Source of the DNA: Bacillota bacterium
GTDB lineage: Bacteria; Bacillota; Clostridia; Peptostreptococcales; Anaerovoracaceae
Direction: 5' to 3'
Length of the DNA: 32,745 bases
NCBI GenBank assembly: GCA_017556505.1
Contig: JAFYNS010000075.1
Span: forward strand, 1-32,745
Positions 9,412 to 28,894 of the stretch are shown here, one piece after another. A program made the position numbers and the translations under genes. Below the pieces are notes generated by a model. The model ran no database searches. It had not been told where the DNA came from and was given only the letters and a program-made list of their open reading frames with translations. Position 1 is the stretch's first letter, and the number at the start of each line of letters is the position of its first letter.

Positions 9412-12400
9412 TTGAATAATTTCCTCATGCGAAGCAGCCGTTCTATGTCTTTTTCCACATAGGTACTGGCCGCCATATTTTCATCCTGCAATACGTGATT
9501 GCCCATGTCCGGACACTTCGTAACCATGAGAACTTCTCCCAGACGCTGGATCGTCAGCTTACGCTCAAACTCATCCTGATATTCTTCTTCCAGTGTTTTC
9601 AGAATATCCCTGGAGTTTTCCAGACATGTCATGGAGTAATCAAAAATACTGCACAGCGGTACATTTCCGAAGAAACCCGGTACTGCAAACGGCAGAATCA
9701 GATTTACGGAAGGGATGGATTCCATCGACGCTACACTGACGTCTCTGTTCTTGATGCTGTCACCGCCCAGATAAGGGTAGGTTATGATTTCATCAATCCA
9801 GAATTTCAGGTTCGGCAGGAAGTAAGCACTTTCCACTTCTCTCTCTCTGGTCATCATCAGGTCGCGTCCGCGGCCGGTCTGTACACCGACTACCGTCTTT
9901 ATGACATTTACCTGATTTTCCTTCAGAATTCCGTCCAGTTCATTCATTCTGTAACCCTTATGAAGAAGGTCATCCACCAGGATTACCGGCCGGTTGAAAG
10001 ATTTTATGGTTTTTACCTGGTTTGCCAGAGGGGAATAATGTGCGGCCTCTTCAATAGTGAATCCGGACATATCTTTTTCAAAATATTTTTCAGTATGGAG
10101 TGATTTGGTAACAGTGTTCGGTACCACCGCGCCATCCAGCACCTTTCCAAAAGGCACTGCCATATACGGACCATACTGCTTCTGCTGACGCGGAACTGCC
10201 GGCACACCATTGATTTCTGTAATCAGCCGAATCATCTTATGATGCATGATACCAGCATTGAAGGTCAGGACCAGATTTCCCGGATACATCTTTGTCAGCA
10301 CCTGAAGCATTCTGTCATGAGCATGTTCCACCGCATCCAGAACGTTCTGATTCCGGTTCAGCGGACTCTTGATAAATGCTTCCACGTTCTTGAACACAAT
10401 AACCGGATCCTTCATATTCGCAGCATAAATCGGTCCGGACGCTCCTGCCGTACCGGATGCAATGTTGACAAAGCCCTGCTTTGACAGCATCTCCAGTACT
10501 CTGCTTCCCATCCCCGCCTCATGACACGGATGATAAACCACGTAAGTATAGTCACGTGCCAGAAGTTCACTGAGAACTTCTGTCAGAATAGTCTGTCCCA
10601 GATTGGAGATGGAACTGTTCTGACTGAAATACAGTCCGCCGATTACAGCGATGGCGCCCACCGCCTGAGCTCGGATATGAGCTGCAATTTCCGGATTCTT
10701 AAACTCCTTCAGCAAATCGATACTGTCCAGTCTGCTGACAGCTGCCAGCGCTACGACTTTGCCGCCGTATACTCCATCGCGGATCCGCACAGTACGGACA
10801 CCTGGACGGTTCAGATATTCCTGAACGGTATCATAATCAAAGCCCCAGCTTTCCAGTTCTTCCTTCATATCGTCTGCGGCTTCTCCATCCCGGCTCATGT
10901 AGGCTTCCAGACGGATATCCTGTGCCTGAATCATGTGCTTGTATGCAGGCTCCCGGAGATACAGACCGTTTTCAAAGATGTAGTTCTGTGCCACCGGGTC
11001 AATCAGATTGGAAATATCCCGGTTCAGGTCGATGTTTTCACGAATTTTGGTGGAACTGATATCTTCGTAGTATTCTTCCAGGGTAAGATTGATAATGCTG
11101 CCGCTGATCGGGTAGCGTTTCGGTGCAGTACCTGGACAGGCTGGCTGTGCTGACGGTACAGACTGGCCGCTGTTTCTCCGGAAGATAATATGGTTGAATG
11201 TATGGATGGAATGTTCCTTTTCCTCTGCACGGTAGCAGGAAGCATTCTCGATTACATCACTTCCGGCCACGAAGTACAGCTGACGGTCAGCAAAGAGTTC
11301 CTTCAGCTGCTTCAGATCATCCGGATTGGCGATATTTACCGGAATATGATCCGGGAAAATATAGATTTCAGCTTCATCGGCTACGGACATGCTCATCAGC
11401 TTCCGGCGCTGCAGTCTCGGCTGAGTCTTTTTCGACCAGCTGAATTCATCCAGTGCCAGATAAACTTCGTATCCCATATTGCGGATTTCTGTGGCAATCG
11501 CCTTATGGCTCAGGCTGAACGGGTCGAAGGTTCCCGGGAAGAAAGCAACTTTTTCCCGGTCAGGAATATGAAATGGACCCTTTTCCGCTTCGTAGAGTGT
11601 AATGAAGCGGTAGATGTGGTTCAGCACTGCTGCATTGTTGAAGAAATCCAGTCCCTCTTCCTTCTGTCCGTCGTACAAAGTCAGCATTTTCTTGCCGTTG
11701 TGACAGAAAATCTGGTATTTTTCTTCCAGTGTCAGATTTGGAGAGCCGAAAATATGGGTTCCCATGGTCCAGAGAGCTTCGGAACTGATTGTGCTGTCAT
11801 AGTTGGCAAATCCTCTGAGAATCAGATTCACCAGATGATACTTACGATGCTCCGCAGCTTCCTCCGTTTCATGTTCCCCGAAATTAGTCCGATAAATCCG
11901 GTAGTGTTCCAGCATGACACCGAAGGTGTGCAGCACGGTAGACGCAGCCTGTCCGTTATTGGATTCAAAAAGCTTCATCAGATCGTCTATGGCTTCATCC
12001 AGTTCCTGCGGCGGCAGGTGGAGCATAATCGGTCCCAGATAAAACGGAATATATTTAGAGAACTGGTAATCACCGATTTCCAGGCCCTTGCTCAGTTCTA
12101 CCGCAATTTCATTTCTCTCTTCCATGGGCATTCTGCCGATAATGGAAACAAGGGCTTCCCCTGCGGCGCGGCGGACGGTTACGGTTTCACTGACCTTAAC
12201 CAGATTTCCCAGATGGGTAGCCACATGGAGTTCCTCTCCCTTGCCGAAGCCGGACTGCAGATGCTTCATCATCAGATTGATATTGCCGATTTTGATGGTC
12301 CATGGGGTTCTGGCCTTCATGTTATCCAGGAACATTTCTGCCAGAACTTCTGTGCTCAGCGGTTCCTGAGGATTCAGTCCCATGATTTCCATCAGTTCCC

Positions 12401-14249
12401 TGTAATAGGTTTCTTCCTCAATCTGCTCGTCCGGCTGAGAGTACATGCATTTTACTCTTACAGCCGCAATTTTCAGGTCGATATTTTCTTTTTTCACAAT
12501 AGATGAAGCAAAGTTCAGAATGGTGCGGCACTGTTTTTCACTGCACCACTGCGGTGCGATCATTCCCGCAGCACGAAGCAGAGCTTCCTTATTCAGAGAG
12601 GTCAGGCTGCGGCTGTTAAACCACGGCATCAGAGCCGCAATATATTCCTGCCTCTGATTTTCAGGACAGGTGTTCAGCAGTCCGCTTACCAGATTCTTCA
12701 GACAGCTTTCAATCCATTTTTTATGCTGTTCCGTCAGTTTGAAATCAGACTGCAGGACCTGCCGCAGATAGTGTTCAAACAGGGAGATATTATTTATTTT
12801 TTTCCGTGCCGGCTGCACGCCTTCCGGAAGTTCTTTTCTGAATTCTTCGTTAAAACGGGCAATAATCAGCCCCATGATTTCACCAGCCTGGGTCCGGATA
12901 TCACTCTCGCGGTGAGCCAGCAGTTCATAGAGGAACTTCAGTGTCATGAGTTTCTGCTTTTCCGTCATGTAGGTGGAGTACTCCCCAAAGATGGAAATAT
13001 AGGTGCGCAGATTCTTCCACTGTTTTTCACTTCTGGCAGTTTCCAGCAAATTGGCAAAATCTTCTTCCCGGTAGAAATGATTCATCAGGCGGATATTGTG
13101 ATCTACTGCAATGTGCTTAATCTTAAGCACCGCCTCGTTATTGCGCAGCAGCGCCACATCCTTTTCCGCGGCTCTTTCAGGCAGCAGGGGAACTGCTGCC
13201 GGAACTTCCGGCAGCACCACATTCACGCCCAGATTCCGCATATAGTTTTCGAAATCAACCAGCTTGTTATATACTTTACGGTAGCGCAGTTCTTTAGCCG
13301 CATCCACATTATCCAGCTTATCCAGAATGACCTGGAAGGATTCCGCCAGGGAATAGAAATGTACAACCTCCACTCCGTCCACCCGGCTGCTCTTCACCCG
13401 GAAATCCGCATAAATCAGAATCAGAGATTCCACAGAAAGGTTTTCCAGTTCCAGATCCCAGGTGGAATGGTTGGCCGCAATATGACTGATCATCGGCATG
13501 TTAAACCGGGTCAGACAGAAGTCAGTGTAGTAGTAATGAATATACGGAATTCTCCGTTCCTCACCTTTTTTGCAGCCGTATTTTCCGATATCGTGAGCTG
13601 CAGCTGCCGCAGAAACCATTCCAAGATCCACAGGTACATTGAGATGGGCCAGCTGTCTTGCCACATGCATAGCTACATAATGAACTCCTGCGATATGTCC
13701 CAGAGTGTTCCATGGTGTGATTTCGGTTCCGATCCGCATGAATTCATAAACATACTGCAGTCTGGACATACGGTCAAACCGCTGATATTCCCGGTTGTAT
13801 CCACCCGCATCAATTTCCGGCATCCGGAGAAAGCGGATATCCACTGTAGGATCAAACGGAAGATTCAGCCGTTCATACTTGAAAAGCACCTGAAGAAGCC
13901 GGAGGAAAACCTTTCTTCCTCTGGCTGAAGTATCCTCAGACTCCTCTGCCTTTTTTTCAGGGAACAGCTGGCCAAGCACATATTCATATGCATGAGCCGG
14001 CCATCCCTTTTCAGGAACCGGTCCCAGGTCTGCCAGCAGGTCTGCCATCATGTCTGCAGTCTTCACCGCACTGAAACGGCCTCTTTCGTCCCGTTCTGCA
14101 AGCAGCTGCTCGATCAGCTGCTTCATACTGTGCTTTTCCAGGAAAGTCAGCATGTCGCCATGACTCATGGACATGTTCTTCAGAAAGGCACGCTCCGTAA
14201 GTACGGTCTGAATCTCATTATACAGTTTTTCACTCTGCGTTCTGTTCAT
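9408..14249 (-). CDS. Giant fusion: HD hydrolase, helical repeats, NadD-like adenylyltransferase, GNAT-like and PRTase-like regions
   Basis: 1613 residues with no signal peptide. HD domain at about 180-300: H190, the HD pair H219/D220 (AAHDIGKYG), H256, H261 and D282. Region 370-880 is all-helical with HEAT-like units such as VRRAAGEALVSIIGRM. A nucleotidyltransferase domain at 900-1095 is clear: FPGTFDPFSLSH (904-915), FVAGSDVIENASCYR (993-1007) and ISSTKIR (1064-1070) match the NadD family in order. Region 1110-1290 looks GNAT-like (AVIGGLYF, LGQTILTEVLSELLARDY). Region 1310-1560 contains RPVILVDDLLHKGYRM (1420-1435), resembling a type I PRPP loop but without its usual Thr. Weak ribosome binding site (AGAGAG). 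It lies 28 bases after malic enzyme and is coupled to the LDH-like gene. HD and NadD are linked elsewhere (YqeK beside or fused to NadD), but this five-part fusion is not one I can name. Confidence 0.85.
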   Translation of the reverse strand: MNRTQSEKLYNEIQTVLTERAFLKNMSMSHGDMLTFLEKHSMKQLIEQLLAERDERGRFSAVKTADMMADLLADLGPVPEKGWPAHAYEYVLGQLFPEKKAEESEDTSARGRKVFLRLLQVLFKYERLNLPFDPTVDIRFLRMPEIDAGGYNREYQRFDRMSRLQYVYEFMRIGTEITPWNTLGHIAGVHYVAMHVARQLAHLNVPVDLGMVSAAAAAHDIGKYGCKKGEERRIPYIHYYYTDFCLTRFNMPMISHIAANHSTWDLELENLSVESLILIYADFRVKSSRVDGVEVVHFYSLAESFQVILDKLDNVDAAKELRYRKVYNKLVDFENYMRNLGVNVVLPEVPAAVPLLPERAAEKDVALLRNNEAVLKIKHIAVDHNIRLMNHFYREEDFANLLETARSEKQWKNLRTYISIFGEYSTYMTEKQKLMTLKFLYELLAHRESDIRTQAGEIMGLIIARFNEEFRKELPEGVQPARKKINNISLFEHYLRQVLQSDFKLTEQHKKWIESCLKNLVSGLLNTCPENQRQEYIAALMPWFNSRSLTSLNKEALLRAAGMIAPQWCSEKQCRTILNFASSIVKKENIDLKIAAVRVKCMYSQPDEQIEEETYYRELMEIMGLNPQEPLSTEVLAEMFLDNMKARTPWTIKIGNINLMMKHLQSGFGKGEELHVATHLGNLVKVSETVTVRRAAGEALVSIIGRMPMEERNEIAVELSKGLEIGDYQFSKYIPFYLGPIMLHLPPQELDEAIDDLMKLFESNNGQAASTVLHTFGVMLEHYRIYRTNFGEHETEEAAEHRKYHLVNLILRGFANYDSTISSEALWTMGTHIFGSPNLTLEEKYQIFCHNGKKMLTLYDGQKEEGLDFFNNAAVLNHIYRFITLYEAEKGPFHIPDREKVAFFPGTFDPFSLSHKAIATEIRNMGYEVYLALDEFSWSKKTQPRLQRRKLMSMSVADEAEIYIFPDHIPVNIANPDDLKQLKELFADRQLYFVAGSDVIENASCYRAEEKEHSIHTFNHIIFRRNSGQSVPSAQPACPGTAPKRYPISGSIINLTLEEYYEDISSTKIRENIDLNRDISNLIDPVAQNYIFENGLYLREPAYKHMIQAQDIRLEAYMSRDGEAADDMKEELESWGFDYDTVQEYLNRPGVRTVRIRDGVYGGKVVALAAVSRLDSIDLLKEFKNPEIAAHIRAQAVGAIAVIGGLYFSQNSSISNLGQTILTEVLSELLARDYTYVVYHPCHEAGMGSRVLEMLSKQGFVNIASGTAGASGPIYAANMKDPVIVFKNVEAFIKSPLNRNQNVLDAVEHAHDRMLQVLTKMYPGNLVLTFNAGIMHHKMIRLITEINGVPAVPRQQKQYGPYMAVPFGKVLDGAVVPNTVTKSLHTEKYFEKDMSGFTIEEAAHYSPLANQVKTIKSFNRPVILVDDLLHKGYRMNELDGILKENQVNVIKTVVGVQTGRGRDLMMTREREVESAYFLPNLKFWIDEIITYPYLGGDSIKNRDVSVASMESIPSVNLILPFAVPGFFGNVPLCSIFDYSMTCLENSRDILKTLEEEYQDEFERKLTIQRLGEVLMVTKCPDMGNHVLQDENMAASTYVEKDIERLLRMRKLFK

Positions 14250-15496: not shown

Positions 15497-15525
15497 ATTT
15501 TACCACATTCTTATGCACTTGGCAA
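15497..15525 (-). promoter_or_regulatory. Promoter of the malic enzyme-led seven-gene operon
   Basis: On the minus strand TTGCCA (15525-15520) and TAAAAT (15502-15497) are separated by 17 bases, five of six matches in each box. The -35 overlaps the last codons of the aro fusion gene. The start would be near 15490, giving a leader of about 30 bases to the ATG at 15459. All following genes down to 5401 are separated by 28 bases or less, and no terminator was found among them. Confidence 0.65.
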
Positions 15526-17034
15526 AATATATGCCCGGATTTCTTCCGCCGCTTCTTCCAGGGTTTTGCCGTTGTTTTCCACTTCTGCATCGCACCAGCT
15601 GCGGTAGAGCGGCAGTCTCTGTGCGTAGAGCCGTTCCAGCGGATTGCTCTGGCTCAGCGGGCGTCCCTCAACCGGCAAAACGTTTAAATCCCGGTTTATA
15701 AATACCAGCCGTCCGTTTTCTGCCAGGGAATAGTAGTTTTCTTCCCGGGTAACCACACCGCCGCCGCAGGCGATAATGATTCCTGTCTCGTGCTTCAGGG
15801 TATCGACTGCTTCCATTTCAATCCGGCGGAACAGGTCTTCCCCGCCCTCTTCAAAGATGGAAGGAATGGACCTGCATTCTCTCTGGACAATCAGCTCATC
15901 CACATCCACAAAGCGGCGTCCGGTCAGTTCCGCCAGCTTTCTTCCGATGGAGGATTTGCCGCATCCCGGCATACCAATCAGAACGATATTTTCTTTTTCA
16001 GCAGCAAGCTTTTTCTCAATCTTTTCTGCTGCTTCATCAGGAATTTCACATCCCAGGAACAGCTGTGCACTGGCTTTTGCCTGTCCCACCAGCATCTTCA
16101 GCCCACCGAAACCTTCCATACCGGACTTGCGTGCCTGACAGAGGAAATTGGTCCGCAGCGGGTTGTATACCACATCAAAAACATACTCCAACTTCCAGAA
16201 GGCTCCCGGATATGCAGCAGAAACTCCGGTATTCGGATACATTCCCACCGGCGTAGTATTCACCATAATCACCGCATCCTGATGATACATCTTCATCTGC
16301 TGGTAGTCACATCCTGTTTTTCCATCACGGCTTACCACTACCACCTGAGATGCACCCAGATCCTCCAGCACACAGGCCACAGCCTTTGATGCACCGCCGG
16401 AGCCCAGAACCAGACATTTTGCACCGGAAACAGGGGCACCGGACTGTTCCACCGTCGTGCGGAATCCATCGTAGTCCGTGTTATATCCCAGAATTCTGCC
16501 GTTTCGGCGAACCAGCGTATTGACAGCTCCAATCCGCTGTGCTTCCGGTGAAAGCTCGTCACAGAAGTCTATCACAGACTCCTTATAAGGGATTGTCACA
16601 TTCAGACCTGCCCACTGACCATTTCTTACGAAGTCTTCCAGATTTTCCGGTTCCACTTCAAATATGCCATAATTGTACGGTTCACTGTATTCGGCCAGCA
16701 TACGGTGAATTTCCGGAGAGAAACTGTGGGAAAGGTTCCGTCCCAGAAGACCGAAATTGCGAAGGCTGTTCTGATAATTCCGGCTCACCTCCATGAGTTT
16801 GCGGAATACTTCAGCGGCATAATCTGAGAGTTCTTCCGTCACACCGGAGGTGATACGGCTGAGAATTTCTTCTTCTCTTTCAGGAACATAAACCGGCAGT
16901 CCCTGCTCCATCTTGTTTCTCACCACTTCACGGGCAGCAGCCATTCGTTTTTCAAAAGCCTCTGCAATGATGCGGTCCTGTTCATTGATCACCTGGCGCG
17001 CTTCCTCCAGCGTCAGTCTTCTGTCAGATTCCAT
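15511..17034 (-). CDS. Trifunctional shikimate protein: chorismate mutase, shikimate dehydrogenase, shikimate kinase
   Basis: 507 residues. The AroQ-type chorismate mutase is at about 1-92: a long first helix LEEARQVINEQDRIIAEAF with EKRM, then VVRNKMEQGLPVYVPEREEEIL. Shikimate dehydrogenase is at about 93-330: LLGRNLSHSFSPEIH (serines binding shikimate), NVTIPYK with catalytic K151, YNTDYDG with D187, the nucleotide loop LGSGGASKAV, and NTTPVGMYP. Shikimate kinase is at about 348-507: Walker A GMPGCGKSS (354-362), FVDVDE, LFRRIE, CGGGV and GRPL. Together these cover two consecutive steps before chorismate is made plus the chorismate-to-prephenate step. GGGGGAGG lies seven bases before the ATG. 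A terminator hairpin of the upstream two-component genes lies about 25 bases upstream, so an aro transcript may have to pass through it. Confidence 0.93.
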   Translation of the reverse strand: MESDRRLTLEEARQVINEQDRIIAEAFEKRMAAAREVVRNKMEQGLPVYVPEREEEILSRITSGVTEELSDYAAEVFRKLMEVSRNYQNSLRNFGLLGRNLSHSFSPEIHRMLAEYSEPYNYGIFEVEPENLEDFVRNGQWAGLNVTIPYKESVIDFCDELSPEAQRIGAVNTLVRRNGRILGYNTDYDGFRTTVEQSGAPVSGAKCLVLGSGGASKAVACVLEDLGASQVVVVSRDGKTGCDYQQMKMYHQDAVIMVNTTPVGMYPNTGVSAAYPGAFWKLEYVFDVVYNPLRTNFLCQARKSGMEGFGGLKMLVGQAKASAQLFLGCEIPDEAAEKIEKKLAAEKENIVLIGMPGCGKSSIGRKLAELTGRRFVDVDELIVQRECRSIPSIFEEGGEDLFRRIEMEAVDTLKHETGIIIACGGGVVTREENYYSLAENGRLVFINRDLNVLPVEGRPLSQSNPLERLYAQRLPLYRSWCDAEVENNGKTLEEAAEEIRAYILPSA

Positions 17035-17102: not shown

Positions 17103-17816
17103 TTATGCTAATGATTCGTCTTCTAACATTCTATAACCAATTCCAAGCTCTGTAAAGATGTATTTTGGCTCTCCCGGATTGGCTTCCAGTTTACGCCGGA
17201 TGTTGGCCATGTTAACCCGGAGAATCCGGTTGTTATCGTCTGCATATGGGCCCCATACCTGATTAATCAGGGAATCATAGGTCAGAACTTTTCCGGAATT
17301 CTGAGCCAGCAGAGATACAATCTTATATTCCACCCGGGTCAGGTGAACTTCTTTTCCTTCCACGGAAACCAGACGCTTTTCAAAATCAATTTTCAATCCG
17401 CCAGCACTGTATGGACGGTTGGAATTAACATGGCTGTCCACCATTCTGTTATTATGGCGAATGGCTGTCCGGATTCTGGCCAGCAGCTCAAAGGTACCGA
17501 AAGGCTTGGTAATATAATCATCTGCACCGCTGTCCAGGGCCATTACCTTTTCTTTCTCCTGGGTTCTGGCAGAAATAACGATGATCGGGATGCTTGACCA
17601 CTCTCTTGTCTTGCGGATAATATCCATGCCATCCATATCAGGCAAACCCAGATCCAGCAGAACAATATCCGGCAGGGAAGAAGTCAGCTGTGCCAGCCCT
17701 TCTTTTCCGCTGTGAACTGCGGTTGTCTTATAATCATGCGCCTGCAGGGTTTTCGAGACGAAATCGCAAATGCTCTTTTCATCTTCAATAATCAGTACGG
17801 AAACTTTCTGTGTCAT
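17103..17816 (-). CDS. OmpR-family response regulator, KdpE-like
   Basis: 237 residues. The receiver domain (about 4-120) has the acidic pocket IIEDE, phosphoacceptor D55 (VLLDLGLPDMDG), the conserved Thr/Ser region ISARTQEKEK and lysine K104 (YITKPF). A winged-helix DNA-binding domain follows (about 135-235), with LTRVEYKIVSLLAQNSGKVL, a VWGPYADDNNRILRVNMANIRRKLE recognition region (quoted in parts: VWGPY, NNRILRVNMANIRRKLE) and IFTELGIGYRM. This spacing and the SGADDYITKPFGTFELLARIR stretch (SGADDYITKPFG, ELLARIR) are typical of KdpE. It follows the histidine kinase gene by three bases. No kdpFABC genes are in the window, so the target may not be potassium uptake. Confidence 0.88.
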   Translation of the reverse strand: MTQKVSVLIIEDEKSICDFVSKTLQAHDYKTTAVHSGKEGLAQLTSSLPDIVLLDLGLPDMDGMDIIRKTREWSSIPIIVISARTQEKEKVMALDSGADDYITKPFGTFELLARIRTAIRHNNRMVDSHVNSNRPYSAGGLKIDFEKRLVSVEGKEVHLTRVEYKIVSLLAQNSGKVLTYDSLINQVWGPYADDNNRILRVNMANIRRKLEANPGEPKYIFTELGIGYRMLEDESLA

Positions 17817-17819
17817 CTC

Positions 17820-18959
17820 TTATTCCTCCTTTTCCTTCGGAAGTGTGAATCGGAATTCGGCCCCTTCTCCATGATTGGAGGCAGTGATTTCACCTCCATG
17901 TGCCAGGATGATGGTTCTGCAGATGGAAAGTCCAATCCCCATCCCTTTATAGGAATCCTGCTTCCCGTTTTCCCCTTCCTGATAACCGTCTCCATCAAAG
18001 ATGGTTTTCAGTTTCGCCGTATTAATGCCACGGCCAAAATCTTTGATACGAACTACTACACTTTCTTCAGTTTCTTCTACCACCAGCTCCGTCGGACGGC
18101 TGCTGTGAGCATGGAACTGTGCATTCTGTAAAATATTTATGATGACCTGCTCTATCAGCATGGCATCCATCATAATCATAATAAGATTGTCCGGAACGGA
18201 TACTTTCACTTCCGCATCAGGGAAACGTTTCCGGAACCGTACCACAGATGCAGCAACAACTTCATCGATTGCCTCCAGTGATTTGGTCACCTGCGCAGTC
18301 TCATTGTCAATGCGGGTTACGGAGAGGAGATTTTCCACCATGCTCAGAAGCCAGTTTGCATCTTCTTTTATGTGGCTCACAAGCTGACGTTTTTCTTCGT
18401 TGTCCAGTGTATCTTCCATTTCCAGATAAGAATTGCTGCTTCCGATGATACCAGTCAGCGGTGTTCGCAGGTCATGAGATACAGCACGGAGCAGGTTGGC
18501 CCTCATTTTTTCTTTCTGGGCTTCCATCAGCTGCTTTTCCTGCTCTGCAAGTGCTCTGGCCTGTTCCTTCATGTTTGTGGTCATGGCGGAAGTAATCATG
18601 GCGATAACCAGCATTCCCACGAAGGTTACCTGATACCCTTCCAGTGTAAAGTTCAGCGACTGAACCGGATAGGTAAAGTAATAGTTTACACTGACTACGC
18701 TTCCTATTGCAAAGAGCATACCGAAAATGTAGCCATCCGTATACCGTGCTACAATGAACAACCCCAGTACATACAGCATGGCGATGTTCAGCGACGGGTC
18801 TGCAGAAATCTCATGGAAAGCAAAGGCTCCAAAGGTAACCGCAACGAAAACCATCAAGGCAATGCCGCAGTTTTTACGATGATTTTTCTCCAGCTCTTCT
18901 CTGGACTTTGATTCCATATGCTTGATATAATCCTTTTTCTGTTCACGTTTTTCCTTCAT
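17820..18959 (-). CDS. Sensor histidine kinase resembling the C-terminal half of KdpD
   Basis: 379 residues. A charged N-tail (1-30) is followed by four membrane helices (about 32-50, 56-72, 77-93 and 111-127) with the DUF4118-type loop YYFTYPVQSLNFTL, as in KdpD. A coiled-coil linker (130-155) leads to the HisKA domain with H162 (AVSHDLRTPLTGI) and the HATPase domain with N279 (NILQNAQFHA), DFGRGI and GMGIGLSICR. The N-terminal KdpD ATP-binding/USP module of about 400 residues is absent. GGAGAG precedes the ATG. It phosphorylates the response regulator encoded three bases downstream. Short KdpD-like kinases occur in Clostridia; the signal they sense is unclear. Confidence 0.88.
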   Translation of the reverse strand: MKEKREQKKDYIKHMESKSREELEKNHRKNCGIALMVFVAVTFGAFAFHEISADPSLNIAMLYVLGLFIVARYTDGYIFGMLFAIGSVVSVNYYFTYPVQSLNFTLEGYQVTFVGMLVIAMITSAMTTNMKEQARALAEQEKQLMEAQKEKMRANLLRAVSHDLRTPLTGIIGSSNSYLEMEDTLDNEEKRQLVSHIKEDANWLLSMVENLLSVTRIDNETAQVTKSLEAIDEVVAASVVRFRKRFPDAEVKVSVPDNLIMIMMDAMLIEQVIINILQNAQFHAHSSRPTELVVEETEESVVVRIKDFGRGINTAKLKTIFDGDGYQEGENGKQDSYKGMGIGLSICRTIILAHGGEITASNHGEGAEFRFTLPKEKEE

Positions 18960-20358: not shown

Positions 20359-20402
20359 GCAGCCACCGGGATGTATCTCATCCCCGGTGGCTGCCGTTTT
20401 TT
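20359..20402 (+). terminator. Terminator of cotJABC, convergent with the YibE/F gene
   Basis: A 12-base perfect stem, GCAGCCACCGGG (20359-20370) and CCCGGTGGCTGC (20383-20394), followed by CG and six T. It immediately abuts the stop codon of the minus-strand gene that ends at 20402, and could also slow transcription from that side, although there the T-run is poor. Confidence 0.92.
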
Positions 20403-21559
20403 CATTCTTTTCGTGTTACCCAGGCCGCAGAGAGGCACACCGTGACCGGTACACTCAGGACCACAGAAATGCCGCCGGTAATTCCCTGCAGAATTTCAAT
20501 GGCCAGATAGTTTGAACTCAGGAGCTGATTCAGATGAATGCCATAGGAACTCAGTACCAGCAGAAATGGAAGTGCCGTTCCTGCGAAGGCCAGAATCAGA
20601 GTTTCACACATGGTTCCCACCATATCTCCACCCACGTGCATTCCAGACCGAATCAGGTCCTTTCGAGAGGTCTTTGGATGGACTTCCCGGATTTCACAGA
20701 GGCTGCTGGTCAGGGACATGGTCATATCCATCAGAGCACCCAGAGAGGCAATGACCACACAGGCAAAGAGAAGCTGCCCCACGTTAAGGCCCGTATGCTG
20801 AGAAATCAGCAGCAGGCTTTCCCCCTCTTCCAGCTGATATCCTGTAACTGACAGGAGACCTGAAATCAGATAATAGGTTCCTACACTGATTACAAGCCCT
20901 GTCATAATGGAGATAAGACTGATTCCTGTCTTTGCACTGACGCCGTTCAGCAGCACCATACAGGAGGCTGCAATGAGACAGGCCGTAAGCAGGCTGCTGA
21001 GAATGGGAGAGCAGCCATGATAAAGCATGGGAATCAGCATTTTAATAAGAAAGAACAGAGAAACCAGAAGGCCCGCCACACTGCCGAATCCCTTCCGCCG
21101 TCCCACCACTGCCATGAACAGGGCGAAAATCACCCCGGCAAGGAGGATACCCCGGGTACGGTCATAGTTATAAACCGTCAGGTAAGCCGCAGTTCCTTCC
21201 GGTGCATCGATTTTCACGATGATCTGCTGTCCTTTTTTTACGGGTACATAGTGGGTGGTACTCAGATTATTCTGCACCGCCACCAGCTGTCCTTTGTAAG
21301 TTCCGGCTTTGATTTCCACCTCCAGAACCTGCAGACCCAGCTTCCGTCCTGTGCCTTCCTCTTCGGCCAGGTCTTCACTGACGATGCGGTTTACCACGCC
21401 CTTTTCGTAGGATATGGAACTGCTGTTATACATGGAATATTCCATGGGGTGATGGCTGCTGATGACACCAACCAGCACCATAATCAGTATGATAGCAAAC
21501 ACAGCAAGGACGGTGTAGTCCCGTCCCTGCTGCTGCATGGTATTGCGTTGTTTTTTCAT
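20402..21559 (-). CDS. YibE/F-like multi-pass membrane protein
   Basis: 385 residues. One N-terminal membrane helix (about 17-35), an extracellular beta-rich segment (about 50-130: VVNRIVSED, LQVLEVEIKAGTYKGQ, GQQIIVKID), then about seven membrane helices to the C-terminus. The features MDMTMSLTSSLCEIREVHP, GMHVGGDMVGTMCETLILAFAG (quoted in parts: GMHVGGDMVGTM, CETLILAFAG) and FLLVLSSYG are characteristic of the YibE/F family, whose function is not established. Its ATG is four bases after the stop of the giant secreted protein and has no obvious ribosome binding site, so its translation is probably coupled. The pairing suggests the two products act together at the cell surface, which is inference. 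Confidence 0.82.
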   Translation of the reverse strand: MKKQRNTMQQQGRDYTVLAVFAIILIMVLVGVISSHHPMEYSMYNSSSISYEKGVVNRIVSEDLAEEEGTGRKLGLQVLEVEIKAGTYKGQLVAVQNNLSTTHYVPVKKGQQIIVKIDAPEGTAAYLTVYNYDRTRGILLAGVIFALFMAVVGRRKGFGSVAGLLVSLFFLIKMLIPMLYHGCSPILSSLLTACLIAASCMVLLNGVSAKTGISLISIMTGLVISVGTYYLISGLLSVTGYQLEEGESLLLISQHTGLNVGQLLFACVVIASLGALMDMTMSLTSSLCEIREVHPKTSRKDLIRSGMHVGGDMVGTMCETLILAFAGTALPFLLVLSSYGIHLNQLLSSNYLAIEILQGITGGISVVLSVPVTVCLSAAWVTRKE

Positions 21560-21563
21560 GAGG

Positions 21564-24500
21564 TTATTTTATAGTTCTCCATGCTTTAGTGGACCAGTCT
21601 GTATAGTATTTCTTACCATTGATTTCCTGGCAGCCACGAACTTTATAGTAATAGGTGTTTCCGGTTTTCAGGCCCTTGGTGTTATAGTAGCTGGTCTTCG
21701 TGGTGGTGAAAATCGGTTTTTTTGTGAATCCGCTGTATCTCTTCGTTGAGCGGAATATCTGATACCCATCAAAATCCACGTCGCTTTCTTTTTCGTACCA
21801 CCATACTTTTACGGCCTTTTTACCTTTCAGGGTGGTCAGCTTGGAGCGTGTAATCAGCTTGGTGGATTTCACTGCTGCAATCTGGTCAGCGGTGCTGTCC
21901 TTATCATCTTCAATATCTGGCGCAGTTCCAGGAGTCTGGCTGCCGCCGGTTGTGCCAGAGCCGGAACCGGAGCCGGAACCTGAACCGGAACCTGATCCAG
22001 AGCTGGAGTTGCCGGTGAGGGCCGTAACAGCCTGCTGTGCGGATTTTGCGGAGAGAACCAGCTGATAGCCGTCCGCTTCACCGTCCAGCGCAAACTGGTA
22101 CTTGATCTGTCCGTTTGCATCGGTTGGAACTTCAGACAGGTAAAGAATGTCGTCCGCTGTCAGATTCTTCAGGTCCACATCCTTCTTTACAGCTGCCATA
22201 GTTACCTGCACGCCTTCAGCGGCGCCCTTCAGGGTCACGGTTCCGCTGGCGATGCCGTCCTTCACAGTCTGAGCAGACAGTGCGAAGGTACCGTTTGCTG
22301 CGGCTGCAGAAGAGCTGTATGTCTTCTGTTCCAGAGCCAGGTATGCTTCATGGCACTGTGCACTCAGCGGGAAGGTATTTTCTGCATCTTCATATTCCAC
22401 TTCATTGAGTGCCAGATCGCCGGTCAGAGGGTCGGTTCCGCTCTGGTAGCAGGTTACCTGTGGTACCATGGCAGATGTCATGTCTTCCAGGCTGTCCCAT
22501 GCATAGATACGGATCTGGTCACCGCTTTCGAAGGACATAGCTTCTTCCAGAGTGAAGTACTTTCCGGACTGATTCTTTCCGGCACCGGTTACGGTTACCA
22601 GCTGCTTATCCAGCAGCTTGCTTCCGTCTTTGCTATAGCGTGCAATCACAACCACACTGTCATCGCTGAAGTTGTGTGCGGTAAAGCCCTTTACTGCACC
22701 ATTTTCCACATCCAGCTTCACGGTCGGTACGGTCACCATAACCATGAGGGAAGAGCATACGGTACGTTCTCCGTAGGAATTGCTCGGGTCGTTGGTGACT
22801 TCATATTCTCCGTCTTCATTGAGAATCACAGAGGTGGAGGAGCCGCCGCCATCCATGTTCAGCGCCTGTACTGCTCCCAAATCCTTCATATACTGACCCA
22901 GTTTTTCAATGGTGAAGCCCTGTGCTCCGTTGTTATAGCCTCTTCCGTCTACAACCACGAAGAAAACAGAACCATCTTCACGGATGCCCACTGCAGTACG
23001 TGGGTGTGTACCATGGCGGTATACATATTCTTCATCATAATCCGGATCAGAGGTATCGGTGACGTCATAATCGCTGAAGTCCTGTACCACTCCATCCTTT
23101 ACCATCCAGAACTGTCCGCCGGATGCCTGTACCAGCTGATCCTTATAGGTTTCCCAATCTTCGCCGTAATCCCCAATGATGGCAGTACCATCTTCCAGGA
23201 TACCGAAGAAAGCACGAAGCGGATAGTTTCTGGTAATGCCATCTACCACCACGCCTGGAGTCATAATTCCTTCCAGAATCTTGCCGCCGTCTTTTATCAG
23301 GTGTCCTTCCGGTCCATTATTGGTATAGAATTCTCCGTTAACTGCAGCGACCACGTCTTTTCCGACTGCTTCGGTCTGAATGGCCTGATTCTTTACGGTT
23401 TCTCCGTAGCTGTCCTTCCAGGTTCTGTCTCGCAGGTCATTATCATCATCGTCCGTCATTTCCAGCTGGACATCGTTCCTGGTGCCCACTGCGATGGAAA
23501 TATTTTTATTATTCAGATCTACATCAATGATGTTTGCAACCTGCTTCAGGTTATCGGTGTCAGTAAAGGTCATCTGACGCAGGGTCACGCCTTCTGCCAC
23601 CTGGGAAGTTTCATCGGACTGAATGGCTTCGGTAATCTGGCTTACCGTAATTACCACAGTTCTGGTTGCAGTTGCCGTATTTCCTGCCTTGTCGCTTACC
23701 GTATAGGTCAGGGTATATACACCAGGGGTATTACTGTCTACTTCACCGGTTACGGTGACTTGGGATTCCAGATTTTCATCCACATTGTCGATGATGTTCA
23801 CGCCTTCCATCGGGTCGAAATCAGGGCCTGCAGCCACATTCTTTTCCACTGGCAGCAGGATGGTCGGTGCTTCTGCATCGCCATTTTCGTTCTTGGTCAG
23901 TGTAACCGTATCCATCAGGTTGGCCTCTGCACTGCCATCGTTGTCAGTAAAGCAGGTACTCAGTGTAAAGTGGTGTTCATCTACGTCTACATTGGTGATG
24001 GAAGGGCGGCTGTCCTGACGGCTTACCTTGGCATACTGCGTAATGATTGCATCGCTCTGCAGTGCATAGTACTTGCTTCCGCTTGCGGAGTTTGCTGTCA
24101 GGTATAATACATCTCCGGACGCCGGGTCGATGCCATCCTGGTCATCAGCCACGTTGGTTCCGTTCATCATGTAGCTGCGTGTATAAACATGGTCATGACC
24201 CATGAGTACCACGTCGATGTCATATTTACTGAAAATATTCGGCAATTCTTCTCTTCTCTGGATGATATCCGTATCATCATAATGGGTGGCAGAGCTGTAT
24301 ACGGAATGATGGAAGGTTACCACTTTCCAGTCTACGCCCTGTCCGTGTTCCCTCAGCACTTCATCGATGAATGCTTCATGGGATGCCGTGCTCAGATTGT
24401 TGGAGTTCAGAGAAATAAATAATACATTGTTGTAAGTAAACCAGTAGTCTCCGCCAGATTTGGAATCGCTGTCTGCAGTTCCATACTTCCTGCTGAGATT

Positions 24501-27500
24501 CGGCATATTGAAGCGTTCATTCCAGTACACACTTCCCACATCGTGGTTCCCGATGTTTGCAGCCAGAGCCAGACTCTTCAGTTCGTCCGGAGCCATAAAT
24601 GCTGCGTATTCGTTGGCGTTGGAATTGTGTTCTACCTGGTCTCCGGCACTGAGCAGGAATGCACTGTCCTTAAACTGGCCGACTGCATATTCCAGTGTCT
24701 TTTCCCAGTTCTGGCCGTCCGTCCTGGTATCTCCACTGGAGCCGATCTGCGGGTCTCCGGCAAAGAGGAAGCGGAATGCTCCGTCAAAATCTCCTGTCTG
24801 GAAGGTATACACATCAGACCAGGCTTCTTCGTTGCCCACACGGTATACATACGTTGTGTTTTCTTCCAGTCTGCCGGTTTCTGCCTTGCTTGCATATTCA
24901 TCCATTCCGGTTCTTCTGGTATCTGCAGTGAACTGTTTCATGCCTTCCTCTGCAGTTGGGAAGGTTCCGTCATTTTCATAGGCATCTGCCGGTGCAATCT
25001 GCAGGAAGGCAGTGCTGCCAGAAGTGCTGATCCAGTTGAAGTTTCTGGTAGTTTCATCGCTTCCCACATTGAAGGTCACGTCGTACACTTCCATGCTGGT
25101 ATTCAGTGCGGTTTCCGCCACGTTCTTCAGTACCGGACGTACCAGCTGGCTGTCCATGGTCCAGGTGTTCTCAAAATCCCAGCCCAGGGTATCCTTATAA
25201 GTTGTTTCTTCGGCGAGCGCTTCATCGGTGACGGTTGCACCCTGTTCGTTGGATGCGTCTGCCCCTTCGGTGACTGCTGTGCCATTCAGCAATGCATTTT
25301 CGGATGCAATATTGTTTGTGAACACGCCGGCTGCCTTACCGATAATTCTGGCGATTGGTTTTCCTTTTACATTGCTTACGTTACCTGCCAGCAGGGCACA
25401 GTCAGAGATATAGGTATCTGTGTAACCATAGCCTGCAATACCGCCGGTGTTCTGTACATAAGAGTATACGTTCGGGATCGCATAACATTTTTCAATAGTG
25501 CCGTTGTGGTCCGCAACACCTGCGATGGCACCGGCTTCCCAGTTGGCTCTTACGCTGACCTGGGTGTAGCAGTTCCGGATGACACCATAGTTTCTGCATG
25601 CGATACCGCCTGCCATCCAGCCGCCATAAATCTTACCATTTACATAGCAGTTTTCGATGATGCCGTTGTTGTAGACTGCCAGCCCTGCCAGATGGTAGCT
25701 GTTGGAACTGGTATCTCCCTGCAGCTTCACGTTGGCCAGACCCAGATTTTTAATGGTGCCCACATTGTTCACAATCAGGGCAATATCTGTCTGGGAACCT
25801 GATGTCTGGATTGCCAGGTTTTCGATGGTATATCCAGCGCCGTCCAGAGTTCCGCAGAATACTTCCGCCGGTGTATAGTCTTCTGTAACGGTGATATTGT
25901 TTTTCAGAACGAAATTGGCCATTGGGTATTCTGCAATCTTCGCTAAATCTGCTTCGGTTTCCACATAAATGGTTTCCCCGGCAGCAGACTGTGCAGCGAT
26001 TTCCGGTACGTTTTTTAATACCGGTCTTCCCAGGGTGTCATCCATGGTCCAGGTATTGGTGAAATCCCAGCCCAGGTTGGTGTAAGCAGCTTCTGCCTTC
26101 AGTGCTTCGTCTGTCACGGTCGCACCGTTTACAGTGGCATCGCCGCAGCTTTCTTCTGCTGCAGCCTGTCCCTGCAGTGTCAGGGATGCAGATGCAATAT
26201 TTCCGGACAGGTTCTGATTCGGGTTGGACCTGCCCAGGATTCTGCCGATGGTAGTCTTGGCAGTATCGGCCATTTCCACAGATCCGGAAAGAACGGCACT
26301 GTTCTGAATGACAGCCGTATTGTCGCGTGCATAAGCAACCAGTCCGCCTGCATTATAGGTAGAGCTGTATACCTCAGCCTGTGCATAGCAGTTTTCTACC
26401 GTAGAACTGATTTCGGACACAGCCACCAGTCCGGCACTTTCGCCGTTTGCTTTGGATGTTACAACCGCATAACAGTTCTTAACGGTGCCGTAGTTGTGGG
26501 CTGCGATACCTGCTGTTCTGTGTCCCCCTTCCACAGACCCGGTCACATAACAGTTTTCAATGATACCGGTGTTGGACGCTGTAATACCAGCAGCCCAGCA
26601 GTCATTATCCATACGTGCGCTGTAGATAGATACACCTGCCAGACCCAGATTTTTAATGCTTCCGCTGTTGTTTTCAATTAGAGCGGCCTTATTGGCTGTA
26701 CCGGTGGCAGCCACCATCAGACCGGTGATCGTATGTCCGTCACCGTCCAGGGTACCGCTGAAAGAAGAAATCGGTGTGAAAAGTCCATCCATCTGGATGT
26801 CAGCAGTCAGTTTGAAGGTTCCCGATGGATTTTCACGAATCAGCTCCAGATCCGCTGCAGCTGCGATTTCAGTCACCACAACAGGCACTTCTTCACTGCC
26901 CTGACCCGGTTCCGGTACATTTTTCAGTGACGGATAATCGTTATCGATGGTCCAGATCGTTTCCGTATCCCATCCCAGGGTATCCTTGTATAAAGCTTCA
27001 CTCTTCAGTTCTTCGTCTGTTACAGTCAGGCCGTTCTTGTTATCTAAAGTACCGTCTGTAACAGGGCTGTTCTGCACCAGTGCGCGGGCAGAAGCTACGT
27101 TGTTCACATAAACAGGCTTCGCCTTTTCCTTCCCGCAGATGCGTGCGTAACTGGTATTGCCTGCGGAAGTCAGAGTTGCGGAACCGCCGGTAACAGCGTT
27201 ATTTCGGATGATCACACTGGTATCCGCACTGTAAGCCACCAGAACACCTACATTATACTTGTTGGTGAAAACAGTAGCATTGGTCCAGCACTTTTCAATT
27301 ACAGAGTTGGCCCTCATAACTGCTGCGATGCCGCCGCATTCAACTTGCGCAGCAGCATCCACGTGTGTATAGCAGTTTCGGATAGTTCCATAGTTTTCTG
27401 CTGTAATGCCGCCCACACGGTATCCTCCGTTAATGGTGCCGGTCACATAGCACTGTTCTATGGTACCGTAATTGTTCGCTGCAATACCGGCAGAAAAATA

Positions 27501-27917
27501 GTTGTTTGCATTGAGGCCGGTAAGATTTACCTCGTACAGACCCAGCTTCTGAATGGTGCCTTCATTGGTAACCACCAGGGCTGCCTGAGTTGGGCCTGAG
27601 GTAATTGCGGTGATGGTCAGGTTGGAAATGGTATGTCCATTTCCGTCCAGAACTCCACTGAAGGAGTCAATTGGTGTAAATTCCCCCGTCATGGTGATGT
27701 CATCTGTCAGCTGGAAGTTTCCGGATGGGTTTTCACGGATTTTTTCCAGATCTGCTTCTGAGCTGATGGCAATCATGCCGCTGGCATTGCTGCCTTCGCT
27801 GCTGCCGTCATCGGCCCACGCATAGGTGGTCGATGACATCATGCTCAGACACATTGACAAAATGATCAGCAGACTGAGAATTTTTTTCGTTGTTTGCTTC
27901 ACATAGGTTTGTCTCAT
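21564..27917 (-). CDS. Giant secreted protein: three beta-helix-like repeats, purple-acid-phosphatase-like domain, NAGPA-type phosphodiester glycosidase
   Basis: About 2117 residues; numbers below count from an upstream ATG 13 codons earlier. Signal peptide 14-48 (KKILSLLIILSMCLSMMSS, then TYAWA). Three GLUG-like repeats of about 290 residues fill 61-948. A purple-acid-phosphatase N-domain (950-1055, ETTRNFNW) precedes a metallophosphoesterase (1060-1310) with GDPQ, GDQ, GNHD, FHHSVY and GHDH. An Ig-like domain (about 1362-1438) is followed by a phosphodiester glycosidase domain (1455-1742) with NGEFYTNNG, HPRTAVGI, VVVDGR and ALNMDGGGSSTS. A Ser-Gly linker (1986-2001) leads to a fibronectin-like domain. 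No LPXTG, SLH or other anchor is seen. The start at 27917 has AGGAGGT seven bases upstream. The chemistry implied is removal of a sugar from a sugar-phosphate diester and then of the phosphate. Confidence 0.88.
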   Translation of the reverse strand: MRQTYVKQTTKKILSLLIILSMCLSMMSSTTYAWADDGSSEGSNASGMIAISSEADLEKIRENPSGNFQLTDDITMTGEFTPIDSFSGVLDGNGHTISNLTITAITSGPTQAALVVTNEGTIQKLGLYEVNLTGLNANNYFSAGIAANNYGTIEQCYVTGTINGGYRVGGITAENYGTIRNCYTHVDAAAQVECGGIAAVMRANSVIEKCWTNATVFTNKYNVGVLVAYSADTSVIIRNNAVTGGSATLTSAGNTSYARICGKEKAKPVYVNNVASARALVQNSPVTDGTLDNKNGLTVTDEELKSEALYKDTLGWDTETIWTIDNDYPSLKNVPEPGQGSEEVPVVVTEIAAAADLELIRENPSGTFKLTADIQMDGLFTPISSFSGTLDGDGHTITGLMVAATGTANKAALIENNSGSIKNLGLAGVSIYSARMDNDCWAAGITASNTGIIENCYVTGSVEGGHRTAGIAAHNYGTVKNCYAVVTSKANGESAGLVAVSEISSTVENCYAQAEVYSSTYNAGGLVAYARDNTAVIQNSAVLSGSVEMADTAKTTIGRILGRSNPNQNLSGNIASASLTLQGQAAAEESCGDATVNGATVTDEALKAEAAYTNLGWDFTNTWTMDDTLGRPVLKNVPEIAAQSAAGETIYVETEADLAKIAEYPMANFVLKNNITVTEDYTPAEVFCGTLDGAGYTIENLAIQTSGSQTDIALIVNNVGTIKNLGLANVKLQGDTSSNSYHLAGLAVYNNGIIENCYVNGKIYGGWMAGGIACRNYGVIRNCYTQVSVRANWEAGAIAGVADHNGTIEKCYAIPNVYSYVQNTGGIAGYGYTDTYISDCALLAGNVSNVKGKPIARIIGKAAGVFTNNIASENALLNGTAVTEGADASNEQGATVTDEALAEETTYKDTLGWDFENTWTMDSQLVRPVLKNVAETALNTSMEVYDVTFNVGSDETTRNFNWISTSGSTAFLQIAPADAYENDGTFPTAEEGMKQFTADTRRTGMDEYASKAETGRLEENTTYVYRVGNEEAWSDVYTFQTGDFDGAFRFLFAGDPQIGSSGDTRTDGQNWEKTLEYAVGQFKDSAFLLSAGDQVEHNSNANEYAAFMAPDELKSLALAANIGNHDVGSVYWNERFNMPNLSRKYGTADSDSKSGGDYWFTYNNVLFISLNSNNLSTASHEAFIDEVLREHGQGVDWKVVTFHHSVYSSATHYDDTDIIQRREELPNIFSKYDIDVVLMGHDHVYTRSYMMNGTNVADDQDGIDPASGDVLYLTANSASGSKYYALQSDAIITQYAKVSRQDSRPSITNVDVDEHHFTLSTCFTDNDGSAEANLMDTVTLTKNENGDAEAPTILLPVEKNVAAGPDFDPMEGVNIIDNVDENLESQVTVTGEVDSNTPGVYTLTYTVSDKAGNTATATRTVVITVSQITEAIQSDETSQVAEGVTLRQMTFTDTDNLKQVANIIDVDLNNKNISIAVGTRNDVQLEMTDDDDNDLRDRTWKDSYGETVKNQAIQTEAVGKDVVAAVNGEFYTNNGPEGHLIKDGGKILEGIMTPGVVVDGITRNYPLRAFFGILEDGTAIIGDYGEDWETYKDQLVQASGGQFWMVKDGVVQDFSDYDVTDTSDPDYDEEYVYRHGTHPRTAVGIREDGSVFFVVVDGRGYNNGAQGFTIEKLGQYMKDLGAVQALNMDGGGSSTSVILNEDGEYEVTNDPSNSYGERTVCSSLMVMVTVPTVKLDVENGAVKGFTAHNFSDDSVVVIARYSKDGSKLLDKQLVTVTGAGKNQSGKYFTLEEAMSFESGDQIRIYAWDSLEDMTSAMVPQVTCYQSGTDPLTGDLALNEVEYEDAENTFPLSAQCHEAYLALEQKTYSSSAAAANGTFALSAQTVKDGIASGTVTLKGAAEGVQVTMAAVKKDVDLKNLTADDILYLSEVPTDANGQIKYQFALDGEADGYQLVLSAKSAQQAVTALTGNSSSGSGSGSGSGSGSGSGTTGGSQTPGTAPDIEDDKDSTADQIAAVKSTKLITRSKLTTLKGKKAVKVWWYEKESDVDFDGYQIFRSTKRYSGFTKKPIFTTTKTSYYNTKGLKTGNTYYYKVRGCQEINGKKYYTDWSTKAWRTIK
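21954..22001 (-). repeat. Hexanucleotide repeat encoding a Ser-Gly linker
   Basis: Eight Ser-Gly dipeptides are encoded by a tandem six-base repeat (variants of GGTTCC and GGCTCC read on the minus strand). It is a flexible linker between the enzyme part and the C-terminal fibronectin-like domain. Six-base unit changes would alter linker length without a frameshift. Confidence 0.8.
25113..25970 (-). repeat. Surface repeat 3 of the giant secreted protein
   Basis: Third copy with the same order (TEADLAKIAEYPMANFVL, GTLDGAGYTIENL, NNGIIENCYVNG, TVTDEALAEETTYKDTLGWD, PVLKNVAE), more diverged at its N-terminal strand. It passes directly into the phosphatase N-domain. Confidence 0.75.
26001..26876 (-). 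repeat. Surface repeat 2 of the giant secreted protein
   Basis: Same order of elements as repeat 1 (AAAADLELIRENPSGTFKL, GTLDGDGHTITGL, NTGIIENCYVTG, TVTDEALKAEAAYTNLGWD, PVLKNVPE). It appears closest to repeat 1 by eye. Confidence 0.75.
26907..27776 (-). repeat. Surface repeat 1 of the giant secreted protein
   Basis: Repeat unit of about 290 codons: opens with ISSEADLEKIRENPSGNFQL, then GVLDGNGHTISNLTI, several NYGTI-NCY turns typical of a parallel beta-helix, and closes with TVTDEELKSEALYKDTLGWD and a WTID..PSLKNVPE element. Confidence 0.75.
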
Positions 27918-27941
27918 TTCTTTTACCTCCTTGTGGCCCCA

Positions 27942-27997
27942 TTGTATCTTTTCCATGTTAAAGGCTTATAAAAGGAACGGTAAAACCTGCGTAAAAC
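27942..27997 (-). promoter_or_regulatory. Pho-box-like promoter of the giant phosphoesterase gene
   Basis: Reading the minus strand, TTTTAC (27996-27991), TTTTAC (27985-27980), TTTTAT (27973-27968) and TTTAACA (27962-27956) recur at 11, 12 and 11 bp. A -10 box TACAAT (27947-27942) follows with no usable -35. With initiation near 27935 the four boxes span about -22 to -62, the position and period of PhoP core sites (TTAACA-like hexamers on an 11-bp period) in Firmicutes. The boxes lie between the pdaA stop and the start codon at 27917. Confidence 0.5.
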
Positions 27998-28003
27998 TTT
28001 TTC

Positions 28004-28837
28004 CTATTTCAGTTCTTCCAGACTCCGAAACACATAACCTTTCTGTTTCCATCCCTGAATCAGTTCCTGCAGGATTTCTGCATTGGTTTTCGATGTAGAA
28101 TGAAGCAGAACGATGGCTCCCGGATGAATCCGGCGGTTCAGAAGGTTCAGAGCCTCTTCTCTGGCAGGCTGTTTGTTTTCGTACCAGTCTACGTAGGCCA
28201 GACTCCAGAAGACTGTGGTGTATCCCAGTTCGTCTGCCTGTTTCAGGTTTTCTTCGCTGTACTTTCCCTGGGGCGGCCGGTAATACTTTTTCATTTCGCT
28301 GCCAGTCACGGTACGGTATACCGCTTCCAGCTGTTCCAGTTCCTTTTTAAAATCTTCTTTAGATGCGATGGCCGACATGTCGGGATGATGCATGGTATGG
28401 TTTCCCACCAGATGCCCCTCCGCCTCCATCCGTTTCACCAGGTCCGGATTTTCTTCCATATAGTTTCCTACCAGAAAGAATGCAGCAGGTACTTTTTCAT
28501 CCTTCAGAACATCCAGAATTCCCGGCGTATATCCGTTTTCATAACCCGCATCAAAGGTCAGGTAGATGCATCTGTCTTTCACATCCTGTTCCGTCCCGTA
28601 AAACCATGCATCGTACTGCTGCAGGTATTCTCTGGTGGCGTTTCCCACCGGCGTTTTTCCTTCTTCCTGGAAACTGAGTCCCCAGTTCCCTTCTGCAGCC
28701 GCATTGACAGCCTCACTCAGTGTCTGAACCTGCAGTTCTTTTTTTTCAAAGTTTTTCATAATCTGATTTTTCGTTACTGCTGCTCCTCCTACCAGCATAA
28801 CCGTTATCACCAGTGCATTCATAACTTCTTTCTTCAT
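28004..28837 (-). CDS. pdaA: Polysaccharide deacetylase, PdaA-type (delta-lactam-forming, spore cortex)
   Basis: 277 residues. One N-terminal membrane anchor or uncleaved signal (about 7-21). The PdaA N-region NWGLSFQEEGKTPVGN (51-66) and YDAWFYG precede the NodB domain: TFDAGYENG (D96), metal ligands H147 and H151 (GNHTMHH), YYRPPQGKY (R187), AYVDW (D217) and VLLHS (H246). PdaA removes acetyl groups from N-acetylmuramic acid during delta-lactam formation in spore cortex. The ATG directly follows a T-run; the ribosome binding site AGGTGA lies inside the terminator hairpin of the preceding gene. It ends 8 bases before the Pho-like boxes of the giant gene. Confidence 0.9.
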   Translation of the reverse strand: MKKEVMNALVITVMLVGGAAVTKNQIMKNFEKKELQVQTLSEAVNAAAEGNWGLSFQEEGKTPVGNATREYLQQYDAWFYGTEQDVKDRCIYLTFDAGYENGYTPGILDVLKDEKVPAAFFLVGNYMEENPDLVKRMEAEGHLVGNHTMHHPDMSAIASKEDFKKELEQLEAVYRTVTGSEMKKYYRPPQGKYSEENLKQADELGYTTVFWSLAYVDWYENKQPAREEALNLLNRRIHPGAIVLLHSTSKTNAEILQELIQGWKQKGYVFRSLEELK

Positions 28838-28873
28838 AAAAAATCACCTCATGGCAGTCTATGCCACGAGGTG
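28838..28873 (-). terminator. Terminator hairpin that contains the pdaA ribosome binding site
   Basis: On the minus strand CACCTC and TGGCA (28873-28862) pair with TGCCA and GAGGTG (28856-28845) around a five-base loop, with one mismatch, followed by A and six T (28843-28838) and then the pdaA ATG (28837-28835). The 3' arm GAGGTG is the pdaA ribosome binding site. The structure can therefore end the purF-like/nudC/reductase transcript and also mask pdaA translation in any read-through RNA. Confidence 0.8.
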
Positions 28874-28894
28874 AGTCATCATTCAGCATTTATG

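Follow-up and report, generated by a model that had tools for sequence, protein, structure and literature searches.

A secreted protein from a gut-type clostridial bacterium of the family Anaerovoracaceae joins a calcineurin-like metallophosphoesterase (MPE) domain to a NAGPA phosphodiester glycosidase domain, and its gene directly adjoins one for a YibE/F-family membrane protein. We give roughly even chances to the view that the exported protein hydrolyses phosphorylated polymers, either at the cell surface or outside the cell, and works with YibE/F as its membrane partner. The NAGPA-MPE pairing could not be upheld as a novelty, because a 2024 paper in Sci Adv on ShfP (YvnB) already describes NAGPA as a possible fusion partner of calcineurin-like phosphoesterases of the cell surface (PMC11488536). 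What is new here is the domain order, with NAGPA after the MPE, and the coupling to YibE/F; the pairing itself is known. The coupling of MPE and YibE/F was found computationally, as an association in genomes, and the roles given to both genes are hypotheses. The window, meaning the whole stretch of DNA that was analysed, is one entire contig of 32,745 nucleotides from a genome of 2.4 Mb in 198 contigs.

Architecture of the fusion protein

An unbroken open reading frame of 2130 amino acids occupies positions 21564-27956 on the reverse strand, as do all other window features located below. The start at 27917, also chosen by the sequence-only reading, is the better choice, since its ATG has AGGAGG 8 nt upstream and a signal peptide (MRQTYVKQTTKKILSLLIILSMCLSMMSSTTYAWA; 27813-27917, read off the sequence) follows directly. 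The resulting gene (21564-27917) encodes a secreted multidomain phosphoesterase/phosphodiester glycosidase of 2117 amino acids; residue numbers given here refer to the 2130-residue frame, from which 13 must be subtracted for the 2117-residue protein. From its N terminus, the protein consists of the signal peptide, three GLUG-type modules, an N-domain of the purple acid phosphatase (PAP) type, the calcineurin-like MPE, an Ig domain, NAGPA, and a C-terminal FN3-like domain. Domain calls were made with Pfam at scores above the curated cut-offs. The sequence-only reading had placed a metallophosphoesterase and a NAGPA-like domain, both with intact motifs, in a single secreted protein, and this is confirmed by PF00149 and PF09992 matches above the cut-offs and by the presence of both motif sets. 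E-values of 6e-35 for NAGPA and 1.3e-12 for the MPE, together with fold matches at 2e-20 and 1e-22, respectively, rule out a chance origin of these assignments.

The PAP-type N-terminal (FN3-like) domain (PF16656; residues 960-1054, positions 24795-25079) scores 42.6 bits against a cut-off of 30, and the calcineurin-like phosphoesterase domain that follows (PF00149; residues 1061-1258, positions 24183-24776) is recognised by Pfam, motifs, and predicted structure. Its motifs are GDPQ (1067), GDQ (1105), GNHD (1136), HH (1216-1217), and GHDH (1253), in which D1068, D1106, N1137, H1217, H1254, and H1256 are, by sequence, the ligand-type residues. Near-invariant positions in a 52-row alignment are D1068, Q1070, D1106, N1137, H1138, H1216, H1254, and H1256. 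The predicted MPE structure (mean pLDDT, 94.5) finds its best PDB matches in plant purple acid phosphatases (TM 0.76, E 1e-22), and the MPE and N-domain model has the same two-domain fold as those enzymes (1kbp and 3zk4), with the same order of metal ligands at the sequence level (D, D, N, H, H, H). However, whereas the plant enzymes carry a tyrosine ligand three residues past the block II aspartate, the window MPE has E1109 there and its relatives have N, E, D, Q, or H, with tyrosine in 0 of 52 aligned rows. True purple acid phosphatase identity was therefore rejected, and the MPE domain is PAP-like yet no PAP.

The NAGPA domain (PF09992; residues 1534-1739, positions 22740-23357) scores 121 bits against a cut-off of 25 and contains NGEF (1540), HPRT (1651), DGR (1670), and NMDGGGS (1700), thus including the conserved HPRT, DGR, and DGGGS motifs. 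Its model, predicted with moderate confidence (pLDDT 70) from a shallow alignment, matches the DUF2233 protein BACOVA_00430 (3ohg; Foldseek E 2e-20, with a sequence match at 7.8e-18) first and vertebrate uncovering enzymes second. Both BACOVA_00430 and NAGPA, the mannose-6-phosphate uncovering enzyme, share PF09992, the HPRT-DGR-DGGGS motifs, and the fold with the window domain. Unlike the uncovering enzyme, the window domain is bacterial and fused to a phosphoesterase, and GlcNAc-P-Man is at most a candidate substrate for it. Viral contigs held almost no relatives of the window NAGPA (one locus).

Three GLUG-type repeat modules (PF07581) of about 290 amino acids each, with mutual identities of 45-46%, span residues 60-350 (26907-27779), 355-650 (26007-26894), and 661-950 (25107-25976), and a bacterial surface Ig-like domain called by Pfam (PF16403; residues 1374-1435, positions 23652-23837) lies between the two catalytic domains. 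Past NAGPA, a Gly/Ser-rich linker evident in the sequence (21921-22004) leads to the C-terminal FN3-like domain of about 100 amino acids (21567-21869). Because 19 other places in the same genome, mostly within large frames, are similar to this domain, it looks like a house module, perhaps one for surface retention. No SLH or cell wall-binding domain was found in the fusion protein.

By its published description, the ShfP/YvnB type of phosphoesterase is likewise secreted and calcineurin-like, has five metal motifs with like residue types and similar spacing, and shows PAP_N-type FN3 and adhesion domains as well as reported fusions to NAGPA among its members (PMC11488536). Against that description, the window protein, which combines a secreted calcineurin-like domain with adhesion-type modules, fits a ShfP-like class (PMC11488536). 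It differs in its GLUG modules, in its C-terminal NAGPA, and in its YibE/F partner, which is unmentioned in the ShfP paper. Bacillus subtilis ShfP, unlike the window protein, carries an array of LTD and Ig domains and has YabQ (ShfA) as its antagonist; the equivalent motif residues are needed for its effect, and glycerol release has been reported (PMC11488536).

Recurrence and domain order of the fusion

The sequence-only reading called for a comparison of architectures that combine PF09992 with metallophosphoesterases, and the pairing indeed recurs. Relatives were gathered by an MPE-only alignment search of genome contigs, and 12 further Clostridia genomes carry a NAGPA-MPE fusion (L032/L067, L033, L034, L045, L049, L062, L101/L127, L121, L123, L124, L125, and L128); a scan of genome contigs with the full 806-residue core as the query gave no matches. 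NAGPA comes first in all 12 of these other fusions, and only in the window was it found after the MPE. BLAST aligned a colinear GLUG-PAP_N-MPE core between window residues 364-1368 and residues 314-1457 of L049, a Pseudoflavonifractor protein (33% over 1175 columns), while the window NAGPA (1446-1742) matched L049 residues 38-295. The NAGPA domain has moved, and the remainder of the protein has stayed in place. The L045 and L062 proteins resemble L049 in having the same colinear core, a homologous NAGPA, and an adjacent YibE/F gene, but in all three NAGPA is N-terminal.

Mapped onto a 111-domain MPE tree, which has long branches, includes one genome twice with a fragment, and leaves out the diverged fusions L123-L125, the presence of NAGPA requires at least seven state changes. 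These changes imply that the combination was gained or lost repeatedly, which supports a functional link between the NAGPA and MPE activities.

A second class of NAGPA-first fusions has a diverged MPE (L033, L034, L121, L123, L124, L125, and L128) and usually adjoins another secreted protein. None of these seven has YibE/F nearby, and the idea that every NAGPA-MPE fusion is paired with YibE/F was therefore rejected. Tandem PAP_N-MPE units, with two or three copies per protein, were observed as well (L131/L105, L126, L132, L044, and L052). Within the genus of the window bacterium, the fusion gene and YibE/F pair is accessory, as evidenced by four other congeneric genomes with neither a match to the fusion core nor the YibE/F neighbour.

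YibE/F and other neighbouring genes

The YibE/F gene (385 amino acids; 20402-21559), overlooked by the sequence-only reading, starts 5 bp past the stop of the fusion gene, and its product matches PF07907 at 1.6e-67 (228 bits against a cut-off of 27.2). Neighbouring YibE/F genes were sought elsewhere with a profile built from six YibE/F proteins beside these fusions and a distance limit of 3 kb, in a locus collection chosen by MPE similarity and not by neighbours. YibE/F lies within 3 kb in 58 of 80 MPE-subfamily loci, and it adjoins the subfamily in 34 of the 36 Bacillota loci whose two flanks each extend for 1.5 kb or more. The paired genes are on the same strand in 55 of 58 cases, with a median gap of 52 bp between frames, and YibE/F may be upstream (about 26) or downstream (about 32) of the MPE gene. 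At a generous 2.5% per locus, the chance probability of this pairing is about 2e-52, a figure that exaggerates the strength of the association, the loci being related. The loci tested come from Clostridia, Bacilli, Erysipelotrichia, Tissierellia, and Coriobacteriia; among loci L041-L120, the pairs are near-constant in Bacillota and Coriobacteriia, and in actinomycetes YibE/F was near the MPE of this subfamily in 0 of 9 fully flanked loci. No gene family besides YibE/F was common to the flanks of the MPE loci.

The literature searched offered neither a link between YibE/F and phosphoesterases nor a function for YibE/F. The family appears there only under the putative transporters, as TC 9.B.141 (PMC3924187), and a paper on the glycerol response of L. 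reuteri lists a YibE/F gene as well as a metallophosphoesterase gene but does not call them neighbours. The association of the two genes as a pair is apparently previously unreported.

About 40 regions with YibE/F genes not beside an MPE were also read in the bacterium's own taxonomic family. Some of these genes adjoin secreted proteins of 1500-2700 amino acids, for which an initial impression from Pfam that they were nonenzymes was overturned by NCBIfam, which showed CehA/McbA-type (PHP-type) metallohydrolase domains (four of five proteins above the NCBIfam cut-off and one below). Two others adjoin a secreted alkaline phosphatase (PF00245). In an even, class-wide sample of 37 YibE/F regions, about six adjoin a secreted phosphoesterase (an MPE in L284 and L287, PHP in L271, alkaline phosphatase in L285 and L291, and 5'-nucleotidase in L290), and the others adjoin assorted genes. 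Since most of that sample has no such partner, a phosphatase partner for every YibE/F gene was rejected; the link is strong from the MPE to YibE/F and is, in the opposite direction, a minority habit concentrated in some clades. Overall, the partners of YibE/F include secreted PhoA at four loci, PHP/CehA-McbA at six loci or more, and 5'-nucleotidase at one; on the YibE/F tree, PHP and PhoA partners were labelled by motif, incompletely, and these labels undercount. Partners of YibE/F that are secreted alkaline phosphatases, a 5'-nucleotidase, or PHP/CehA-McbA proteins containing OB-fold-like domains were seen at L195:5569-7092, L201:5814-7397, L285:9378-10946, L291:5765-7219, L290:9152-11209, and L205-L208.

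Upstream of the fusion gene by 87 bp is a gene for a PdaA-like polysaccharide deacetylase (28004-28837; TIGR02884, 297.9 bits against a cut-off of 298), which is possibly on the same transcript; a terminator-like hairpin (28874-28844) precedes the PdaA-like gene, and no terminator-like site on the same strand lies ahead of the fusion gene. PdaA was dropped as part of the system because it is not a shared neighbour at other loci, and this nonconserved gene hints at a wall context. The ribosome-binding site for the PdaA-like gene (start at 28837) falls within the 3' arm of the strong hairpin at 28844-28874, which could sequester it.

Farther along the window, one protein combines chorismate mutase, shikimate dehydrogenase, and shikimate kinase domains (15511-17034), and another of 1613 amino acids has HD and nicotinate-nucleotide adenylyltransferase-like domains, with large remaining regions that have no assigned domain (9408-14249). 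A short KdpD-like sensor kinase (DUF4118 and kinase core; 17103-18959) has a response regulator alongside, and no kdp transporter genes were seen in the window.

Proposed function and alternatives

In the mechanism that we propose, the GLUG, Ig, and FN3-like modules would keep the enzyme attached or close to a glycan matrix. NAGPA would hydrolyse a sugar C1-O-P ester to leave a phosphomonoester, and the MPE would then strip the phosphate or cut neighbouring phosphodiesters. YibE/F would be the membrane partner of the secreted enzyme and would most likely act as a permease for phosphate, a polyol, or a sugar, perhaps importing such products. Stepwise chemistry of this kind, with the sugar released by NAGPA and the phosphate by the phosphatase, is plausible, and the recurrent fusion of the two domains in both orders speaks for it. 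A likely substrate class is anionic wall polymer, including the wall teichoic acid linkage GlcNAc-1-P-6-MurNAc, which is chemically close to the GlcNAc-1-P-6-Man known for NAGPA; environmental phosphoesters and host or yeast phosphoglycans are further candidates. Against the proposal, the two catalytic domains might use different substrates, many YibE/F genes adjoin unrelated genes, and the diverged-MPE fusions and actinomycete MPE loci do without a nearby YibE/F.

Possible but doubtful is a pure phosphorus scavenger that takes phosphate from varied extracellular phosphoesters (nucleotides, phosphosugars, and phytate-like compounds), with NAGPA merely widening its range and YibE/F importing phosphate or the organic product. 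The adjacency of YibE/F to unrelated secreted phosphatases (PhoA, 5'-nucleotidase, PHP, and MPE) fits that role, as do the plant purple acid phosphatases and wheat purple acid phytase among the top MPE fold matches, but the many glycan-binding-type modules and the recurrent fusion to NAGPA point to a polymer substrate. The same range of neighbours, all of them metalloenzymes, since metal dependence is a general property of the enzyme families beside YibE/F, could instead mean that YibE/F supplies metal to secreted metallophosphoesterases or acts in their assembly or export and does not import products; we regard this as unlikely, and the conserved polar residues held in the hydrophobic part of YibE/F fit several functions.

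The sequence-only reading, whose domains and motifs stood up to the Pfam and motif scans, had looked to host glycans and yeast mannan, and these substrates drew no support from the data. A forager for mannose-6-phosphate glycans or yeast phosphomannan would suit the apparent gut origin of several pair-bearing loci and the action of the animal NAGPA relative on GlcNAc-1-P-6-Man, but no mannan utilisation genes adjoin within the window and the pair also occurs in Bacilli such as Paenibacillus and Neobacillus, so that we consider it very unlikely. Anionic polymers of the bacterium's own wall type are at least as likely a substrate, given the two LCP genes and one TagF-like gene in its genome and the PdaA-like neighbour. 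That neighbour, at the TIGR02884 cut-off, also raises the prospect of wall remodelling in sporulation, in which the protein would be coexpressed with a muramoyl deacetylase and would trim teichoic-type polymers from the forespore or mother cell wall, as proposed for ShfP, which acts in the B. subtilis forespore (PMC11488536). We find such a role distinctly unlikely, considering that the PdaA gene is not common to other loci and that the MPE-YibE/F pair extends to Coriobacteriia. Coriobacteriia are not known to form spores.

The occurrence of YibE/F beside secreted phosphate-releasing enzymes in many other bacteria as well suggests a common system for scavenging or for recycling at the cell surface. 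In our judgment, the chances are even that YibE/F in this clade is dedicated to secreted phosphoesterases as their membrane partner, probably a permease. The two genes would make up an undescribed system that could use calcineurin-like, PHP-type, PhoA, or 5'-nucleotidase enzymes interchangeably, with the NAGPA-MPE fusion as the form specialised for sugar-phosphodiester polymers. The fusion would represent a repeatedly assembled two-step phosphoester enzyme, built in both orders, that makes coupled release of sugar and phosphate testable. Moreover, the near-obligate pairing in Bacillota, together with the recurrent pairing with other phosphatases, provides a concrete functional hypothesis for YibE/F, a widespread membrane family.
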